Source of the DNA: a marine actinobacterium MedAcidi-G2B
GTDB lineage: Bacteria > Actinomycetota > Acidimicrobiia > Acidimicrobiales > MedAcidi-G1
Assembly (NCBI GenBank): GCA_000817115.1
Contig: JUEO01000002.1
Location: 45,146-109,145, forward strand
Direction of reading: 5' to 3'
Length of the DNA: 64,000 nucleotides
Shown here: positions 20,846-64,000 of the stretch, piece by piece
How the letters are laid out: each line of letters begins with the position of its first letter
How positions within the stretch are numbered: position 1 is the stretch's first letter
Made by a program: the position numbers and the translations under genes
The notes under the pieces: model-generated
Seen by the model: the letters and a program-made list of their open reading frames with translations, nothing else
What the model was told of the DNA's origin: nothing
Databases searched by the model: none

Positions 20846-21409
20846 ATGGCCATAATCACTACTAACGATTTAAAGAATGGTATGACACTTGACCTTGAGG
20901 GCTCTTTGGTTCAGGTGGTTGATTTTCAACATGTTAAACCCGGGAAAGGTCATGCTTTCGTTCGTACTACCCTGAAAAATGTTCGCTCTGGAGCAGTAGT
21001 GGATCGCACTTTCCGAGCTGGAGAAAAAGTAGAACGCGCCATTGTTGATAAAAGAGATATGCAGTTTCTATATAGAGAAGGCGCAGATTACGTATTTATG
21101 GATACTGAAACTTATGAGCAGATGACAGTAACTCCCGAAACTCTTGGAGGGGCGACGAACTACCTTGTTGACTCCAGTACGCCACAATTGCTTATGTATG
21201 GCGAAGAAGTAATTGGAGTAGAGCTACCGGCTTCAGTACAAATTGAAATATCAGAAACTGAACCTGGCATCCAAGGAGATCGAGTATCTGGAGCACGAAA
21301 ACCAGCCACTTTAGAAACAGGCTTAGTGATTCAAGTTCCTTTGTTTGTCGAACAAAACGAAGTAGTCAAAGTTGATACTCGCACAGGCGAATACCTGGGT
21401 CGGGTCTGA
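20846..21409 (+). CDS. efp: translation elongation factor P
   Basis: DLKNGMTLDLEGSLVQVVDFQHVKPGKGHAFVRTTLKN. Confidence 0.97.
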   Translation: MAIITTNDLKNGMTLDLEGSLVQVVDFQHVKPGKGHAFVRTTLKNVRSGAVVDRTFRAGEKVERAIVDKRDMQFLYREGADYVFMDTETYEQMTVTPETLGGATNYLVDSSTPQLLMYGEEVIGVELPASVQIEISETEPGIQGDRVSGARKPATLETGLVIQVPLFVEQNEVVKVDTRTGEYLGRV

Positions 21410-21426
21410 CACTTAAGGAATATGTA

Positions 21427-21849
21427 GTGAGTGAAGAATTAGACACTGATTTTGGCTCTCGCCGAGAAGCAAGAGAAACTGTTCTCAGTATTCTTTATGC
21501 TGCTGATAATCGTGGACAATCTCTTACTGATTATCTTGAAGAGCAATCTGTAGAGCCAGAACTATTTGTATCAGATTTGGTTAAAGGAATATCGACCCAT
21601 TTGGAAAGAATTGATTCCATGATTGGTCAGTTCGCTGAAGGGTGGAGCACTGAACGTATGCCTGCCATAGATAAGGCATTACTACGTATGGCCGTGTACG
21701 AGGTTCTTTATCGACTAGATATACCAATAGAGGCCATCCTTTCTGAGGCAGTAGCTTTAGCGAGTGAATACTCAACTGAACAATCGAGCAGATTCATTAA
21801 TGGGGTAGTTGGAAGCATCTCTGAAGAGACCAGAACAAATAGCAACTAG
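21427..21849 (+). CDS. nusB: transcription antitermination factor NusB
   Basis: SRREARETVLSILYAAD, IDKALLRMAVYEVLY, IPIEAILSEAVALASEYS. Confidence 0.95.
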   Translation: MSEELDTDFGSRREARETVLSILYAADNRGQSLTDYLEEQSVEPELFVSDLVKGISTHLERIDSMIGQFAEGWSTERMPAIDKALLRMAVYEVLYRLDIPIEAILSEAVALASEYSTEQSSRFINGVVGSISEETRTNSN

Positions 21850-21919
21850 CGATTAGTTAGATGGTCTTCGCAGCTGGCGCAAAATTTTCAAAGATGGCGC
21901 GGGCGGCATTTTAATTTGC

Positions 21920-21925
21920 TACAGT
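21920..21925 (+). promoter_or_regulatory. candidate -10 element (TACAGT) of the pyr operon
   Basis: TAnnnT 7-8 nt upstream of the base of the PyrR-binding hairpin; -35 not obvious. Confidence 0.45.
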
Positions 21926-21932
21926 TCTTTTT

Positions 21933-21968
21933 GACCGTGAAGCGAGTCCTGTGAGGCTTGTACGGATC
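21933..21968 (+). promoter_or_regulatory. PyrR-binding RNA hairpin (pyr leader)
   Basis: 21945-21958 AGTCCTGTGAGGCT matches ARUCCNGNGAGGYU; upper stem AGUC/GGCU closes hexaloop CUGUGA, purine-rich 5' bulge, lower stem CCGT/ACGG. Confidence 0.88.
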
Positions 21969-21984
21969 AGAGGAGTTCATACAA

Positions 21985-22551
21985 GTGGTTGAAAAAGAAC
22001 GAGTTCAAACGCCCCCCAAAGGGGGCGTTTTTGTTGCACACGCAAGAGTTTTAGACGCGGAAGACATCAAACGCGCAATTCAACGTATGGCCCATGAAAT
22101 AGTTGAACGAAACCATGGGTTAGACAACGTTGTTTTAATAGGACTTCAAACAGGAGGAGTGATGGTGGCAGAAATGCTCACTGAAGCTCTGAGTAAAATT
22201 AGCGGCACGAGTCCTCCTCAAGGAACACTAGATGTAGCGCTTCATCGTGATGATATAGGTATGCGACCTGTCATGCCTGAAGCAGTAACAGATATTTCTG
22301 TTGATCTAGATGGAGCAACGATCGTTATCGCCGATGACGTTCTTTTCACCGGTCGAACTATTAGAGCGGCTTTAGATGCGCTTTGTGATTTTGGACGCCC
22401 TAAAGAAATTCAACTTGCCGTGATGGTCGATCGAGGGCATCGGGAGTTGCCTATCAGGCCTGATTATGTGGGGAAAAATCTCCCCACGCGCATATCAGAG
22501 ATTGTAGATGTGAGTCCAGAAGGAGTAGATCTTGGGACGGTAAAAAAATGA
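21985..22551 (+). CDS. pyrR: PyrR bifunctional pyr operon regulator / uracil phosphoribosyltransferase
   Basis: ARVLDAEDIKRAIQRMAHEIVERN, VIADDVLFTGRTIRAALDAL (PRPP motif); GTG at 21985 has SD AGAGGAG with 9 nt spacing. Confidence 0.95.
   Translation: MVEKERVQTPPKGGVFVAHARVLDAEDIKRAIQRMAHEIVERNHGLDNVVLIGLQTGGVMVAEMLTEALSKISGTSPPQGTLDVALHRDDIGMRPVMPEAVTDISVDLDGATIVIADDVLFTGRTIRAALDALCDFGRPKEIQLAVMVDRGHRELPIRPDYVGKNLPTRISEIVDVSPEGVDLGTVKK
22007..22034 (+). terminator. intrinsic terminator within the 5' end of pyrR
   Basis: AAACGCCCCC-CAAA-GGGGGCGTTT perfect 10-bp stem, tetraloop, T-rich tail (TTTTTGTT). Confidence 0.85.
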
Positions 22552-23510
22552 ATTCAATCCCATCTAGAAGCTTGTTGTCCATTGAGGGCATGACAAAAAG
22601 CGATATAGAAGAAATTCTGGATCTAACTGACACTTTTGATGAGATTGGACGCCGACCGATTCCCAAAGTCCCAGCGCTTAGAGGACGAACAGTTGCCACA
22701 TTGTTTTTTGAGAATTCCACTCGAACCCGACTTTCTTTTGAAACAGCAGCACGACGCCTCTCTGCAGACACAATGAGTTTTGGAGCAGGATCTTCGTCAC
22801 TGTCAAAAGGGGAAAGTGTTCGCGACACCGTTGAAGTCATTGAAGCTTATGGAGCAGATGTGCTTGTAGTAAGACATCCTGATGCTGGAACGGCTCAACG
22901 TATTGACAATTGGACAGAGGCATTAGTTATTAATGCAGGAGATGGTTGCCACGAACACCCAACTCAGGCGCTATTAGATGCGTATACCTTAAGAAAACAT
23001 AAAGGATCACTCAATGGGCTCAGAATAGCCATTGTTGGAGATATAAGACATTCGAGGGTTGCCCGATCCGATGTGCTTGCTTTTACGATGCTTGGAGCAG
23101 AAGTCGTGCTAGTAGCTCCACCTACTTTGTTGCCTCCATCTCTAGAAGGATGGCCCGTAACTACCTCATATGATCTAGATGAAGTACTACCAACATTAGA
23201 TGTTTGTTATCTCTTGAGAATGCAGAATGAAAGAATCAACGAAGGCCTAATCCCATCAGTACGAGAGTATGTAGCAGACTACGGATTAAACACAAAACGA
23301 GCAGCAACTCTTCCAAAGGACGCACTCATCTGCCACCCCGGTCCTACAAATCGCGGAATTGAAATTGAAGCAGCAGTAGCGTCAGATTCTAGATCGGTCA
23401 TTCTTGACCAAGTATCAAATGGGGTTTCCATCCGAATGGCAGTTCTGTTTCTTCTCTTGGGATCAGGACGCAACTTAGTAGAGGTAAACGACCTGGAAGG
23501 AGAGAAATGA
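22548..23510 (+). CDS. pyrB: aspartate carbamoyltransferase catalytic subunit
   Basis: FFENSTRTRLSFETAARRL, GDGCHEHPTQALLDAYT. Confidence 0.97.
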   Translation: MNSIPSRSLLSIEGMTKSDIEEILDLTDTFDEIGRRPIPKVPALRGRTVATLFFENSTRTRLSFETAARRLSADTMSFGAGSSSLSKGESVRDTVEVIEAYGADVLVVRHPDAGTAQRIDNWTEALVINAGDGCHEHPTQALLDAYTLRKHKGSLNGLRIAIVGDIRHSRVARSDVLAFTMLGAEVVLVAPPTLLPPSLEGWPVTTSYDLDEVLPTLDVCYLLRMQNERINEGLIPSVREYVADYGLNTKRAATLPKDALICHPGPTNRGIEIEAAVASDSRSVILDQVSNGVSIRMAVLFLLLGSGRNLVEVNDLEGEK

Positions 23511-24799
23511 GCCTTGTAATTCGTGGCGGAACCATCATTGACTCAGATGGTGAAAAGAGAGCTGATGTAGCGATTGGAGACGAAGGAATTATCACAGAAG
23601 TTTCTGCAAACTTAAAAGGTGACGAAGAACTTGACGCTTCTGGATGTATTGTCACCTCTGGATTTGTTGATTTGCATAGCCATTTACGTGAACCAGGGCA
23701 AGAAGACGCAGAAACAATAGAAACAGGAGCAAGAGGTGGAGCTCTAGGCGGGTACACGGCCTTAATTGCTATGCCAAACACGACACCCGCTATGGACTGT
23801 CTAGCGGTTATTGACCAAGTACGTGCTTTAGGAAAAAAATCTGTTTGTGAAATTATCCCTACCGGAACAATGACCGTAGGGCGTAACGGGGAGAAAATGT
23901 CTCCAATGGGAGAACTAGTAGATGCCGGAGTAGGGATTTTCACTGATGACGGAAATGGTTTACAAGATCCTCGACTCATGCGTCGAATTATGGAATACAG
24001 CACTGGGTTGAAGCATCGGCTAGGACGCCCGGTCGTGCTTGCTCAACACTGTGAAGTTGAAGCTCTCTCTTGTGGAGGTCACATGCATGAAGGAGCTTGG
24101 TCTTCTCGTCTTGGAATCCCGGGTCAACCAGCGGAAGCTGAAGAACTCATGGTTTCACGAGATATAGCCCTTGTGCGTCTTACCGGCGCACATATGCATT
24201 TTCAGCATTTATCAACAACTGGATCAGTTGAAATGGTTCGTTTGGCAAAACAAGAGGGTCTGCCAATAACCGCTGAAGCTACTACCCACCATTTCAGCCT
24301 TACTGACGCATCATGTGCTTCTTATGATCCGGTATTCAAAGTGCACCCTCCACTTCGAACCGAGCAAGATGTATTTGCAGTGAAAAAAGGTTTATCTGAC
24401 GGGACTATTGATGCCATAGCTACCGACCATGCACCCCATACAGATCATTCAAAGGAAAAATCTTTTGCCGAAGCTCCTCCTGGAATGCTTGGTCTCGAGA
24501 CAGCCTTCAGTATCTCACTTGAAGATTCTGGACTAGATCTACCACAAATTCTTGCCCTCCTGTCTTGGCGTCCAGCAGCAATAGCTGGCATATCAGATCG
24601 ACATGGAAACACTGTTTCAATAGGGTCGAAAGCAAATCTTTGTGTAATTGACCCGGATATCACATGGACAGTGTCAGGCAATTCGATGGCTAGTAGGAGT
24701 TCAAACACCCCATACGAAGGGCGTCGTTTAAGAGGACGTGTTCGCCACACAATCCAATCAGGAGAAGCCGTAGTGATAGATGGGGAAACTCAACGATGA
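23507..24799 (+). CDS. pyrC: dihydroorotase
   Basis: GFVDLHSHLREPG, ATDHAPHT. Confidence 0.97.
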   Translation: MSLVIRGGTIIDSDGEKRADVAIGDEGIITEVSANLKGDEELDASGCIVTSGFVDLHSHLREPGQEDAETIETGARGGALGGYTALIAMPNTTPAMDCLAVIDQVRALGKKSVCEIIPTGTMTVGRNGEKMSPMGELVDAGVGIFTDDGNGLQDPRLMRRIMEYSTGLKHRLGRPVVLAQHCEVEALSCGGHMHEGAWSSRLGIPGQPAEAEELMVSRDIALVRLTGAHMHFQHLSTTGSVEMVRLAKQEGLPITAEATTHHFSLTDASCASYDPVFKVHPPLRTEQDVFAVKKGLSDGTIDAIATDHAPHTDHSKEKSFAEAPPGMLGLETAFSISLEDSGLDLPQILALLSWRPAAIAGISDRHGNTVSIGSKANLCVIDPDITWTVSGNSMASRSSNTPYEGRRLRGRVRHTIQSGEAVVIDGETQR

Positions 24800-25899
24800 C
24801 TCGAAACGCAGAAACCTCAAGACTTGTACTAGCGGATGGAACTGTATTTGATGGTGAAATGATTGGAGCCCCACCAGTTAATGGAGTAGCTACCGGAGAA
24901 GCCGTCTTCAATACTGTTATGTCGGGATATCAAGAAGTTATTACTGACCCTTCTTATGCCGGACAGATAATAACTTTCACTTATCCCCACATAGGAAATT
25001 ATGGAGTGAATAATGAGGATTTTGAGAGCAGACAACCCTTTTGTTCAGGAGTGATCGTCCGACAACTCAGCAGAAGGACAAGTAATTGGCGTGCAACAAA
25101 TAGCCTTGATTCATTTTTGAAAGAGCATGAAATACCTGGAATAGCAGGAATAGATACTAGACGCCTTACACGACATCTCAGAGATGAAGGTTCAATGCCA
25201 GCAGCCTTTGGACAGGGAGACCTAGATGAACTAATTCAATCAGCCAGAGAAACTCTACCCACAGACGGAATTGATCTCGTTTCAACTGTTACCTGCAAAA
25301 CAAAATATATTGTTCCTTCCCTCGGTGGAATTAGACGAATAGTTGCCTATGACTTTGGTATAAAAACCACAATTCTCCACCATCTATCTAAATTAGGAGA
25401 AGTTATCGTCGTCCCAGCCCAGACCTCTTACGAAGAGGTCTTAGATCTAGAACCAGATGGTGTCTTCTTATCAAATGGGCCAGGAGACCCTGCACCACTA
25501 GCAGGTATACGTTCAAATATCTCATCGTTACTTGGGAAAGTACCAATATTTGGTATATGTCTTGGCCACCAATTACTTGCTGCAACCCTTGGAGCTGAAA
25601 CTTTTAAATTGCCATTTGGTCACCATGGAGGAAACCATCCTGTAAGGAACTTGAAGACAGGTGCCGTTGAAATCACCAGCCAAAACCACAACTACTGCGT
25701 AGCTGATGGAGGGATATCATCCGTAGACCTAACGCATATCAACCTGAACGATGAAACTATTGAAGGTCTTCGCTGCCAAGAAGTTCCAGCTTTTAGTGTC
25801 CAATATCACCCAGAAGCAGGTCCAGGACCACACGACAGCCAGTACCTTTTTAAAGAATTTGAAGAACTGATGGCTAAAACTAATGGAGGAGAGTCCTAG
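24796..25899 (+). CDS. carA: carbamoyl-phosphate synthase small subunit
   Basis: [46 protein letters not shown]. Confidence 0.97.
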
Positions 25900-28800
25900 T
25901 GCCAAGACGAACAGACATCTCCAGCATTCTCCTTATTGGATCCGGACCGATAGTCATCGGACAGGCATGCGAATTTGATTATTCAGGAACCCAAGCATGC
26001 CGAGTCCTCAAAGAAGAGGGCTACCGAGTGATCCTCGTCAACTCCAATCCTGCAACCATCATGACAGATCCTGATTTCGCCGATGCGACCTATGTTGAAC
26101 CGCTTCGGTTAGACGTCTTGACAAGAGTGATAGAACAAGAACGACCAGATGCGCTTCTGCCAACACTGGGAGGACAAACTGCTCTGAACCTTGCTATGGA
26201 ATTGGTTGAAGCCGGAGTGCTTGAAGAATATGGAGTTGAACTCATAGGCGCACGATCTGAGGCAATTGCTACCGCCGAGGACCGCCATTTATTCAAAGAG
26301 GCAATGTTGGAAATTGGTTTACAAGTTCCAGACTCCGGTATCGCTCACTCACTAGATGAAGCAAAAAAAGTAGTGGAAGGCATAGGACTGCCGGTCATAA
26401 TACGCCCTGCCTACATACTTGGGGGCAAAGGAACGGGTATGGCGCACACTTCAGAAGAGTTCGAGAAAGTGGCTCAGAATGGTTTAGACGCTAGTCCAAT
26501 TAAAGAAATACTTATTGAGCAGTCAATTGCAGGATGGAAAGAATTTGAATTAGAAGTTATGAGAGATCAGTCCGATAACTGTGTTGTCGTATGCTCAATA
26601 GAAAATTTTGATCCCATGGGTGTCCATACCGGGGATTCCATCACTGTGGCACCTGCTCAAACTCTCACTGACATTGAATACCAGAAGATGCGTGACGATT
26701 CTTTTGCTTGTTTACGAAGAGTTGGCGTAGAAACAGGGGGTTCTAATGTTCAGTTTGCAGTCAACCCAGAAAACGGTGATCAAGTCATTATCGAAATGAA
26801 CCCAAGAGTGAGCCGATCTTCTGCTCTTGCATCAAAAGCAACAGGATTTCCAATTGCGAAAATAGCAGCAAGACTTGCCATCGGATACACCCTAGATGAA
26901 ATACCTAACGACATCACAGAAAAAACTCCAGCTGCTTTTGAACCCACCATTGATTACGTAGTAACTAAAATCCCACGCTGGGCATTCGAAAAATTTCCAG
27001 GAGCCGATGGAATTCTTGGCACGTCCATGCAGTCCGTTGGCGAAGTAATGGCGATCGGCAGAACTTTTCCTGAATCTTTACAAAAGGGGCTGCGTTCTCT
27101 TGAAAATGGTCGATTTGGTTTGAACGCTGACCCAGCAGAAAACTCTCTCAAAAAAATGGATAACGAAGACCTAAGGTCTGCTGCAAAAATAGCTACACCA
27201 GATCGCATATACCAGATAGAAGCCTTATTTCGACGTGGACTCACTGTTGAAGAAGTTCATTCTGATACTTCTATTGATCCATGGTTCCTAGATCAGATAC
27301 TTACTATTACGGAAGAACGATCATATTTAGAAAACGAAACTCTCGACACGCTAGATAAATGGTCATGGAAGAGAGCGAAACAGCTCGGATTTTCTGACGC
27401 ACAACTTGCTTACCTTTGGGAAACCCAAGAGTCGCTAGTGAGAGAAAAGCGGGAAAGTCTTGGAGTGTTCCCTACCTATAAAACAGTTGATACATGTGGA
27501 GCTGAGTTTGCGGCTGACACCCCTTATCATTACTCAACTTGGGAAGACGAAAATGAAGTAAAGCCGTCTGGACGGCCCAAAATCATGATTCTTGGATCTG
27601 GACCGAACCGAATAGGCCAAGGCATTGAATTTGATTACTGTTGTGTACACGCTAGCTTCGCCCTCCGTTCTGCTGGTTATGAAACAATTATGGTTAACTG
27701 CAATCCCGAGACAGTTTCAACAGACTATGACACTAGCGACCGGCTGTATTTCGAGCCGTTAACTCACGAAGATGTATCTAACGTCATAGAAGCAGAACAG
27801 CCAGAAGGAATAATTGTTTCACTTGGTGGCCAGACCCCTTTGAAACTCGCCGCAGTCCTTCCTGAAGAACTCATAGCTGGAACTAATCCAAAATCAATTG
27901 ATATCGCTGAAGATCGGGAACTTTGGAATGCATTATGCAGAAATATTGGTATCAATCAACCACCAGGCGGAACAGCCATCAATCTAGATGAAGCTCAAGA
28001 AATAGCTGATGAAGTTGGATTTCCAGTACTGATAAGACCCTCGTATGTTCTTGGTGGTCGGGCAATGGAAATTGTTTACGACCATTCTCAGTTAGAGAAA
28101 GCTATGGCAGAACTTTTAGAGTTCGGAAGTCTAGGAATTGAGGGAGGACTTTCTTCAGAGCGCCCAGTTCTTGTTGATCGGTTCCTAGAAGAAGCAATTG
28201 AAGTGGATGTTGATGCGATTCGGGATGCAACTGGAGATACTGTCATAGGGGCAGTAATGGAACATGTGGAAGAAGCAGGTATCCATAGCGGGGACAGTGC
28301 GTGTGTGATACCTCCACCGCATTTGAATGAAGAAGTAATAGCAAAGATTGAAGAATTTACATTACAGATAGCCGAAGCCCTTGAAGTAAAGGGACTAATC
28401 AATGTTCAATTTGCAGTAAAAGAAGATCAGATTTATGTGATTGAAGCCAATCCTCGTGCTTCACGAACTGTTCCTTTCGTGGCTAAAGCGACAGGGGTTC
28501 CTTTGGCAAAAGTAGCTAGCCGAGTGATGGTTGGCGCCACACTTGCGGAACTACGAGAAGAAAAATTGCTTAGGCCGCGAGCCTCTGGAGATCATGTTGC
28601 GGTTAAAGAAGCAGTATTACCATTCAACCGTTTTCCAGAAGCTGACCCCGTACTTGGCCCAGAAATGCGTTCCACGGGCGAAGTAATGGGTATAGATCTA
28701 ACAACAGGACTGGCTTTCGCTAAGTCACAAATTTCTGCAGGTGGTGCACTACCAGAATCTGGGACAGTATTTATGTCTCTTGCAGATAGAGATAAAGAAA

Positions 28801-29174
28801 CTGGACTTGAAGCAGCGCGCAGCCTCTCGGATTTAGGGCTCGAGATAGTAGCAACAAAAGGCACAGCAGAGCATTTAGAGAAAAACGGAATACGAGTTAA
28901 AGACGTAGTAGCGAAACTGGATGAAGAGGGAACAGATGCAGTTGAACTGATTCGTTCGGGAGCAGTTCAACTCGTAGTCAATAGTCCCCATGGACGAGGA
29001 CCACGTGCCGATGGGGATCATATTCGCGGTGCGGCTGGGGCAGAGGATATTCCACTTCTCACTACTGCCTCTGCGGCATTAGCAGCAGCTAAAGGCCTTC
29101 ATGAATGGAAAAATAGTTCACTAGAAGTTCGTACTCTTCAGGCATATCATGAAGGTGTCAAAGCAGAGCATTGA
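25899..29174 (+). CDS. carB: carbamoyl-phosphate synthase large subunit
   Basis: [25 protein letters not shown] and [21 protein letters not shown] duplicated halves. Confidence 0.98.
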
Positions 29175-29175
29175 T

Positions 29176-30105
29176 ATGGGACATATTCCAAGTACTGATT
29201 TCACGACGAGAATAGGGTCTGTGGTTCTTCCGAATCCGATCATGACAGCATCAGGAACATCTGGACAAGGCGCTGAACTTTCAAAATATTTCGACCTTTC
29301 CTCACTTGGAGCAATTGTCGTGAAGTCTCTACATGCCAAACCCTGGCCTGGCAGTCCTGCGCCTCGTTTACACCCAACTTCTGCAGGAATGATAAATAGC
29401 GTTGGGCTTCAAGGTCCGGGAATAGAAGAGTGGCTGATAAATGATCTTCCCGCGTTAGAAAAGGCTGGAGCAAGAGTAATTGTAAGTATTTGGGGGCAAA
29501 CAGTAGAAGAGTTTGAGCAGGCTGCGAAACTACTAGCAGGTGCTTCAGATGCTGTGATAGCGGTAGAAGTGAATGCTTCTTGTCCGAATTTAGAAGACAG
29601 AACAAATCTTTTTGCTCATTCAGCAGTAGCAACTGCAGAAGTTGTAAAAGCTTCTTTAGTTTCGGAAAGACCATGTTGGGCGAAGCTCAGTTCAAACACC
29701 CCTGATTTACCTCAAATCGCAAAAGCAGCCGAAGAAGCTGGAGCAGAAGCAGTAACAGTTGCAAACACATTATTAGGCATGGTGATTAACACGGACACTC
29801 GTAAACCCTTACTAGGAGCTGGGCGTGGCGGGGTCTCAGGTCCTGCGATCAAGCCAATAGCAATTCGGTCGGTTTTTGACACCTACGCCAGCAATTTAGA
29901 AATACCAATCATTGGAGTAGGAGGAATCGCAAAAGGGGAAGACGTTTCTGAGTTCTTGATGGCAGGGGCAACTGCAACACAAATAGGAACAGCAACATTC
30001 GCAAACCCTCGTGCTCCTCAGAAGATCCTCAAAGGGTTTTCAAAATGGTGTAAAGATCAAGGTTTAGATCAAGTAAATAAGTTGATTGGAGTGGCTCATG
30101 GCTGA
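29176..30105 (+). CDS. pyrD: dihydroorotate dehydrogenase, class 1 (1B-like)
   Basis: NPIMTASGTSGQG, VEVNASCPN, GVGGIAKGEDVSEFLMAGATATQIGTA; ATG at 29176. Confidence 0.93.
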   Translation: MGHIPSTDFTTRIGSVVLPNPIMTASGTSGQGAELSKYFDLSSLGAIVVKSLHAKPWPGSPAPRLHPTSAGMINSVGLQGPGIEEWLINDLPALEKAGARVIVSIWGQTVEEFEQAAKLLAGASDAVIAVEVNASCPNLEDRTNLFAHSAVATAEVVKASLVSERPCWAKLSSNTPDLPQIAKAAEEAGAEAVTVANTLLGMVINTDTRKPLLGAGRGGVSGPAIKPIAIRSVFDTYASNLEIPIIGVGGIAKGEDVSEFLMAGATATQIGTATFANPRAPQKILKGFSKWCKDQGLDQVNKLIGVAHG

Positions 30106-30838
30106 AGAAAATTTTGATGGCGATAAATTTGAAGAAATAGATGAGGGAGAAGTTCCTTCCGAAATTCGTTCTCGTTTAGCATTGGCGTTAGATGTTGATG
30201 ATGTCGTTGCAGCCCGACGCCTCGCTGCTGATCTTGATGAATTTTTTGGAACGGTCAAAGTTGGATTAGAGCTTTATACAGCTGCCGGGCCAGATGTAAT
30301 TGCAGGACTTGTTGCAAATGGATGGGATGTGTTTGCAGATCTCAAATTGCATGACATACCAACCACGGTCAATAAAGCAGCTCGAGTTGTTGGATCTTTA
30401 GGAGTTCGCTGGCTTACTGTTCATACATCCGGCGGTGAGGCAATGCTTCAAGCAGCAGTCGAAGGACTAAGAGAAGGAGCAGAAGGTCTTGACGGGCCAC
30501 CACCAGGAGTTTTAGGGGTGACAGTTTTGACTAGTGATGCCGAAGCCTCTTCAGAAACATTGAAGACTCGAACTTCACTTGCGGTAGAAACTGGATGTGC
30601 TGGAATCATTTGCGCTGCTCCTGATTTATCAACCACTGAGCCATGGGCAGATCAACTAACACGAGTCGTACCTGGTACTCGTATGCCAGGATCTGAAACC
30701 CATGATCAGGCACGAGTCTTAACGCCGCAGCAGGCCATAAACGATGGAGCTGACATCTTGGTTATTGGCCGTACAGTGACGTTGGCGGAAGAACCGATCC
30801 TTGCAGCAGCAGAACTTGTTAGTTATTTACTCGGATGA
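30098..30838 (+). CDS. pyrF: orotidine 5'-phosphate decarboxylase (type 1)
   Basis: ALDVDD, VFADLKLHDIPTTV; overlaps pyrD stop. Confidence 0.94.
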   Translation: MAEENFDGDKFEEIDEGEVPSEIRSRLALALDVDDVVAARRLAADLDEFFGTVKVGLELYTAAGPDVIAGLVANGWDVFADLKLHDIPTTVNKAARVVGSLGVRWLTVHTSGGEAMLQAAVEGLREGAEGLDGPPPGVLGVTVLTSDAEASSETLKTRTSLAVETGCAGIICAAPDLSTTEPWADQLTRVVPGTRMPGSETHDQARVLTPQQAINDGADILVIGRTVTLAEEPILAAAELVSYLLG

Positions 30839-44020: not shown

Positions 44021-44187
44021 AAGTGGGATTTCCCACCTGACCACTGAAGGTGCGATCAGGTCGCTTCCAAGTAAGCAGCGTTTGCTGCTGACGCGGGTGT
44101 CGGCTTTTCGGCACCCGTTTTTTTATGGATGGGTTTAATTCAAGAAGTCAGGAAGACTGGCTAAGTGATACAAAGGAGTGAGAAGCG
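44021..44187 (+). promoter_or_regulatory. structured infC-rpmI-rplT leader
   Basis: Successive hairpins GTGGG-ATTT-CCCAC, CCTGA...TCAGG, AGCAGC-GTTT-GCTGCT, then terminator at 44094. Confidence 0.65.
44094..44124 (+). terminator. intrinsic terminator/attenuator upstream of infC
   Basis: CGGGTGTCG-GCTTTT-CGGCACCCG 9-bp stem followed by TTTTTTT. Confidence 0.88.

Positions 44188-63701: not shown

Positions 63702-64000
<299 letters not shown>

Follow-up and report, generated by a model that had tools for sequence, protein, structure and literature searches.

In 1997, Van de Casteele et al. reportedly proposed a ribosome-coupled form of PyrR attenuation for the pyr operon of Thermus strain ZO5. 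Additionally, the pyr leader of Mycobacterium smegmatis is said to be subject to PyrR-dependent translational repression, as attributed to Fields and Switzer in 2007. The locus described in this article, found in a marine actinobacterium, resembles the Thermus arrangement in its PyrR site, in the lack of an antiterminator, and in the proposed role of a translating ribosome in preventing the terminator, but differs from it in that the Thermus terminator reportedly lies 5' of pyrR in a leader ORF, whereas the present one is part of pyrR, where it codes for an N-terminal extension of PyrR. The locus is interpreted here as a PyrR-gated, ribosome-coupled attenuator with its terminator built into the first pyrR codons, a sequence-based reading to which a probability of about 0.7 is assigned.

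The window, that is, the whole 64-kb stretch of DNA analysed (G000:C12:45146-109145), is part of a 1.44-Mb draft genome. On its + strand, a TACAGT −10 hexamer, a PyrR hairpin, AGAGGAG, GTG and an intrinsic terminator follow one another in this order, and the features of the locus, in window coordinates, are as follows.

21920-21925, + strand: −10 promoter hexamer TACAGT
21930-21971, + strand: predicted PyrR-binding hairpin of the anti-antiterminator type (fold; sub-threshold RF00515 match; base pairs with compensatory changes in both helix 1 and helix 2)
21945-21958, + strand: PyrR consensus ARUCCNGNGAGGYU, here AGTCCTGTGAGGCT (sequence; consensus as given in a preliminary description of this DNA and in RF00515)
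21969-21975, + strand: Shine-Dalgarno sequence AGAGGAG (equivalent found in relatives)
21985-22551, + strand: pyrR coding sequence of 188 aa, GTG start at 21985-21987 (NCBIfam NF003549, 211.8 bits)
21985-22041, + strand: N-terminal extension of PyrR, residues 1-19, encoding the terminator
21991-22001, + strand: possible RNA polymerase pause, with G-10 at 21991, Y-1 at 22000 and G+1 at 22001 (a lead only)
22007-22032, + strand: intrinsic terminator inside pyrR (fold; strict window scan; nucleotide-level selection)
22548-30838, + strand: putatively controlled genes with head-to-tail overlaps (ORF list), which we take from family knowledge to be pyrB, pyrC, carA, carB, pyrD and pyrF

The PyrR consensus, the Shine-Dalgarno sequence, the GTG and the terminator had already been placed at these coordinates in the preliminary description, and all four were found there when the sequence was re-read and folded. 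The fold of the 111-nt leader, at −38.6 kcal/mol (z = −2.97), comprises both the hairpin at 21930-21971, the 3' end of which overlaps the Shine-Dalgarno sequence, and the terminator. The Rfam PyrR family RF00515 matches positions 21931-22035 at 38 bits, short of the 54 bits set as its gathering score. The terminator consists of a stem (22007-22016 with 22021-22030), a CAAA loop (22017-22020) and a U-tract (22028-22032); its stem begins 22 nt after the pyrR start, and the element corresponds to codons 8-16 of the gene (CAA ACG CCC CCC AAA GGG GGC GTT TTT). A strict scan of both strands of the window (ΔG ≤ −12, at least 5 T in 8 nt) returned two terminator-like hairpins, this one and one at 44093-44118, of which only the former is intragenic. 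The occurrence of an in-gene terminator after the PyrR hairpin is real and lies far beyond chance. Between the PyrR box and the pyrR core, terminators with ΔG ≤ −14 are present at 44 of 61 loci of the order set, compared with 1.2 expected from dinucleotide shuffles, and at 46 of 101 other loci, compared with 2.4 expected.

Regarding the surroundings of the locus, the hairpin at 44093-44118 sits between listed ORFs, and the 5' part of a 16S rRNA gene occupies 63702-64000, at the window end. Directly 5' of pyrR, at 20846-21849, are genes that we presume from family knowledge to be efp-like (elongation factor P) and nusB-like; another upstream gene takes this place in several relatives. The in-gene terminator encodes Pro-Pro, an EF-P-dependent motif, near the efp-like gene.

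Each of the 24 genomes of the window's family that carry PyrR has the same layout, as do most families of the order. A strict pattern, defined as the PyrR box, 38-67 nt and CGCCCCC-N4-GGGGGCGT, matches at least 119 genome stretches, and among the matches listed nearly all are titled Acidimicrobiia or Acidimicrobiales; as judged from these matches, a pyrR gene with an in-gene terminator is typical of this large, mostly uncultured group of Actinobacteria. Three metagenome-assembled records titled Bifidobacterium breve (L238, L278, L295) bear the acidimicrobial element and are probably mislabelled. PyrR itself is nearly universal, being present in 145 of 150 genomes of the phylum and 132 of 148 of the class, and its genes occur in three layouts: layout A, with the box and Shine-Dalgarno sequence directly 5' of pyrR and the terminator absent; layout B, in which the box and Shine-Dalgarno sequence are followed by a short leader ORF running into the terminator, a stop codon and then pyrR; and layout C, that of the window, with the terminator inside pyrR. 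The counts of these layouts rest on a rough start-codon rule by which some rows are misfiled, L030 and L036 having been placed wrongly in the leader-ORF class. In an unrooted PyrR tree, every layout C row is placed in one half, and the layout B rows, with few exceptions, are placed in the other. Translation of the leader ORFs in the leader-ORF class is not claimed, because the 32 of 47 start frames that are open through the terminator are matched by an equal 32 in the control frame.

Relatives also differ in how the element is built. The PyrR box is kept while the terminator is lost or weakened in families f7 and f18 and in parts of f20, f21 and f23, and the terminator is therefore dispensable for PyrR control. 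GC-rich relatives have a shorter U-tract (TTTTC, TCTTC). Two f20 genomes carry another stem, ACGCGGCACC-CC-GGTGCCGCGT, encoding the peptide TRHPGAAF in the same place, and a further genome, G027, carries yet another replacement stem there, GAACGGTGGCGCCTGGCGCCGCCGTT, encoding VAPGAAVF. In genome G026 (L358), which has the fused version at pyrR, a second PyrR box lies about 3.7 kb 3' of the pyrR box, before carA, followed by a Shine-Dalgarno sequence and a GC-rich hairpin spanned by a short leader ORF, VSNTPDALCRPAGGAFVPGPGGPS, the stop codon of which overlaps the carA start. The co-occurrence of the two versions in one genome suggests that the leader ORF and the fused form are interchangeable versions of one module. 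Elsewhere, in L360 (G058), a PyrR box at 938 precedes carA, and the long hairpin that comes after the box, TGCATGTTCGTGCAC...GTGCATGAACATGCA, lacks a T-run. No further PyrR boxes are claimed in the window's own genome, because a simple pattern gave 4 matches there and an equal 4 in the reversed control. Streamlined relatives within the class (L190-L193, family f27, with genomes of about 1 Mb) have a shorter PyrR; the box pattern finds no match upstream of their pyrR, and L190 has a diverged GATACCAGTGAGTGTC. On the pyrR locus of another relative, L051, an FMN riboswitch match of 106 bits was recorded at 2183-2305.

The interpretation of the locus depends in part on the frame in which the terminator is read. 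From the Shine-Dalgarno sequence, the lack of later starts and the constant start-to-stem spacing in relatives, we infer that pyrR starts at GTG 21985. The preliminary description had stated that no in-frame start codon separates the terminator from the conserved PyrR core, and indeed no ATG, GTG or TTG is present there in the window. Among 79 strict-pattern occurrences, the frame is complete and stays open for 160 codons or more beyond the stem in 71, is truncated by a contig end in 6 and forms a short ORF in 2; the in-frame start nearest to the stem lies at one identical distance in 60, and in 14 further cases a start codon stands directly 5' of the stem, several of these resembling internal Met or Leu codons. 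Alignments with solved PyrR structures begin only at residue 20 or 21, and the terminator is thus placed within an N-terminal extension that has no counterpart in the structure alignments. The beginning of this extension, MAERER(R), encoded at 21985-22002 in the window, is strongly conserved even where the terminator is degenerate (L040, L049), for which a pause, translation start and protein function are candidate reasons. It could be argued that pyrR truly starts downstream and that what is read through the terminator is a leader ORF that shares the pyrR frame by coincidence, given that many relatives have an in-frame ATG at 'ARIM' and that leader-ORF versions occur elsewhere in the phylum; this is nevertheless very improbable, as no such start lies within 12 codons past the stem in 15 of the 79 genomes with the exact element, including the window's genus, and no stop codon parts the terminator frame from the PyrR core in any of the 24 family members. 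For the window's genus, a downstream start was rejected on this ground. A different objection accepts the frame and attributes the conserved sequence to constraint on the peptide TPPxGGVFV, which is indeed conserved across most of the order, with the hairpin as a by-product. Next to no probability is given to this view, since the synonymous third bases hardly vary in the stem but are unconstrained in the loop. Across 30 relatives collected by protein similarity, the major third-base frequency at conserved fourfold-degenerate columns averages 0.49 in the pyrR body, with a maximum of 0.77, compared with 1.00 at Thr9 and 0.93 at each of Pro10, Gly13 and Gly14 in the stem, and only 0.33 at Pro11, the third base of which falls in the loop. 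Within the U-tract, T is the last base of the Val15 codon in 0.86 of genomes and of the Val17 codon in 0.74, versus at most 0.33 at other conserved Val columns. Recoding of this peptide according to the codon usage of the respective locus (400 trials per locus) likewise speaks against the peptide as the cause: for most genomes, 0-6 of the 400 recodings equal or beat the observed terminator, and for the window 2 of 400 do so. Exceptions are L015, L019, L020 and L021, as well as L022, for which the number is 153 of 400 and the terminator is visibly degraded. Moreover, the lineages with another peptide still have a hairpin in the same place. The peptide-constraint reading was rejected by the synonymous-site tests. 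Of the two structures claimed in the preliminary description, the PyrR hairpin shows compensatory pair changes in both helices, while covariation in the terminator stem is weak (both-sided changes in 1 of 9 pairs) because the stem hardly varies; the argument for selection therefore relies on third-base conservation and on those branches in which the stem is new. The stem is kept across the order, and by these measures selection is acting on the nucleotides of the stem and U-tract.

The remaining alternatives concern how the terminator would be controlled. Classical attenuation of the Bacillus subtilis type, with an overlooked antiterminator, would account for a PyrR hairpin followed by an intrinsic terminator, both of which are spanned by the Rfam PyrR model. 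The preliminary description had found no convincing antiterminator, and a search of 39 leaders agrees: the best upstream pairing of the 5' arm averages −7.9 kcal/mol and has no fixed position, versus −17.1 kcal/mol for the terminator, which is retained in 36 of the 39 minimum-energy folds. Additionally, of 48 loci examined, 47 have a TANNNT hexamer 23-26 nt 5' of the PyrR box, which in the window would put the transcript start at about 21932; with the −10 box at a fixed position, the transcript should begin at the hairpin base, leaving no room for an antiterminator, and the GGGCG at 21901, earlier suspected to lie upstream of the start, would fall outside the transcript. With a transcript apparently beginning at the hairpin, no consistent upstream partner for the 5' arm and a terminator within coding sequence, an overlooked antiterminator is scarcely plausible. 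A further alternative holds that PyrR only represses translation, as in Mycobacterium smegmatis, and that the terminator is a constitutive brake or polarity checkpoint for late-translated transcripts and not a sensor of PyrR. The abutment of the box on the Shine-Dalgarno sequence would suffice for translational repression, relatives with the box only exist within the same order, and in E. coli, terminators located less than 100 bp into a gene are nearly fully active even when translated (PMC4824070). A near-complete constitutive stop would, however, silence an essential operon, and the terminator was not found on its own but is tied to the box at near-constant spacing, so that regulation fits better than a constitutive brake; the element also appears in short-leader-ORF form before pyrR and carA. 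This alternative is considered rather unlikely.

The preferred reading, that of the ribosome-coupled attenuator gated by PyrR, draws on what is seen in the sequences, namely the anatomy, its conservation, the selection on the stem and U-tract, the open frame without a later start in the window and the lack of an antiterminator. From these we infer PyrR binding, termination in vivo and relief by the ribosome, which may be linked as follows. The transcript would begin with the base of the PyrR hairpin. At high UMP levels, PyrR(-UMP) on the hairpin would cover the Shine-Dalgarno sequence and keep ribosomes from loading; without a ribosome, the terminator in codons 8-16 would fold, and RNA polymerase would stop before pyrR and pyrBC-carAB-pyrDF. 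When UMP is scarce, a ribosome would load, advance about three codons and hold the 5' arm unpaired, allowing the operon to be transcribed, and the ribosome would thus stand in for an antiterminator. The hybrid mode suggested in the preliminary description, in which a block of translation becomes termination of the pyr operon, is supported in these sequence-based tests, since neither of the two stated refuting conditions that sequences can address, a pyrR start beyond the hairpin and a stem not kept in relatives, held.

Data from E. coli raise a problem of timing for this mechanism. When a terminator is placed 30 bp after a start codon, translation cuts its efficiency by only about 10% (PMC4824070), because the ribosome has not yet caught up, and without the help of a pause such as that in pyrBI, it is rare for ribosomes to reach the polymerase in the first 100 bp (PMC4824070; see also PMC7858274). 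The mechanism would therefore need a pause, initiation at very high speed or a terminator that leaks, and an extra timing device such as a polymerase pause is probably required for the ribosome to arrive in time. The sequence G-10 Y-1 G+1 is the consensus of RNA polymerase pauses, and this pattern, ending in codon 6, occurs in 84 of 89 distinct extensions, where it is confounded with the conserved ERER peptide. With the polymerase enclosing about 14 nt of RNA, the start codon would be just exposed at this candidate pause, which serves as a lead only. A tentative extension of the mechanism, possible at best, is that the PyrR extension in Acidimicrobiia is a former leader peptide carrying both the pause (about codon 6, ERER) and the terminator (codons 8-16), the pause holding the polymerase while the Shine-Dalgarno sequence and start codon emerge, and a race between PyrR and the ribosome then setting stop or go for the operon.

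If the mechanism is true, the locus would provide a clear example from nature in which an RNA-binding repressor turns a block of initiation into intrinsic termination within its own gene, across an order. It would make testable, outside model organisms, whether the first ribosome stays near RNA polymerase within the first 50 nt of a gene, against which the E. coli data stand. The element also offers an example of dual coding, of peptide and terminator, in which a clean control is built in, and leader scans that leave out coding sequence may overlook it. No description of a terminator inside pyrR was found in the literature searched, which covers few subscription journals.

Among known systems, E. 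coli pyrBI/pyrL is similar in that a ribosome translating across a terminator prevents termination of a pyrimidine operon (PMC5021804, PMC4824070), but there UTP is sensed through polymerase pausing with a separate leader peptide (PMC5021804), whereas here an RNA-binding protein is proposed to gate the ribosome. The PyrR leaders of other Actinomycetota with leader ORFs (L065, L066, L071, L101 and others) share the box, the Shine-Dalgarno sequence and an ORF running into a terminator, and differ in the stop codon that parts the putative leader ORF from pyrR. The pyr attenuators of Bacillus subtilis likewise combine a PyrR consensus hairpin with an intrinsic terminator; in the window, neither an antiterminator nor a terminator 5' of the coding sequence is present, the terminator being intragenic. 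In terms of RF00515, the ARUCCNGNGAGGYU hairpin, purine-rich internal bulge and lower stem are all present, but the gathering score of 54 is reached neither by the window nor by any of 13 order relatives, while 4 leader-ORF loci elsewhere in the phylum pass it. As in M. smegmatis, the PyrR hairpin overlaps or abuts the Shine-Dalgarno sequence of the first gene, but the mycobacterial type is not known to involve a terminator, whereas the window adds an intrinsic one within the coding sequence, by which the translation block is proposed to become transcription termination. The Thermus ZO5 proposal is the nearest known system: in the window, too, an ORF starting next to the PyrR site overlaps the terminator without an antiterminator, and in place of a separate leader ORF 5' of pyrR, the frame is that of pyrR itself. 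Ribosome-coupled PyrR attenuation having reportedly already been proposed for Thermus, what is best called new here, on the sequences compared, is the fusion of the terminator into the regulator's own coding sequence, kept across most of the order.
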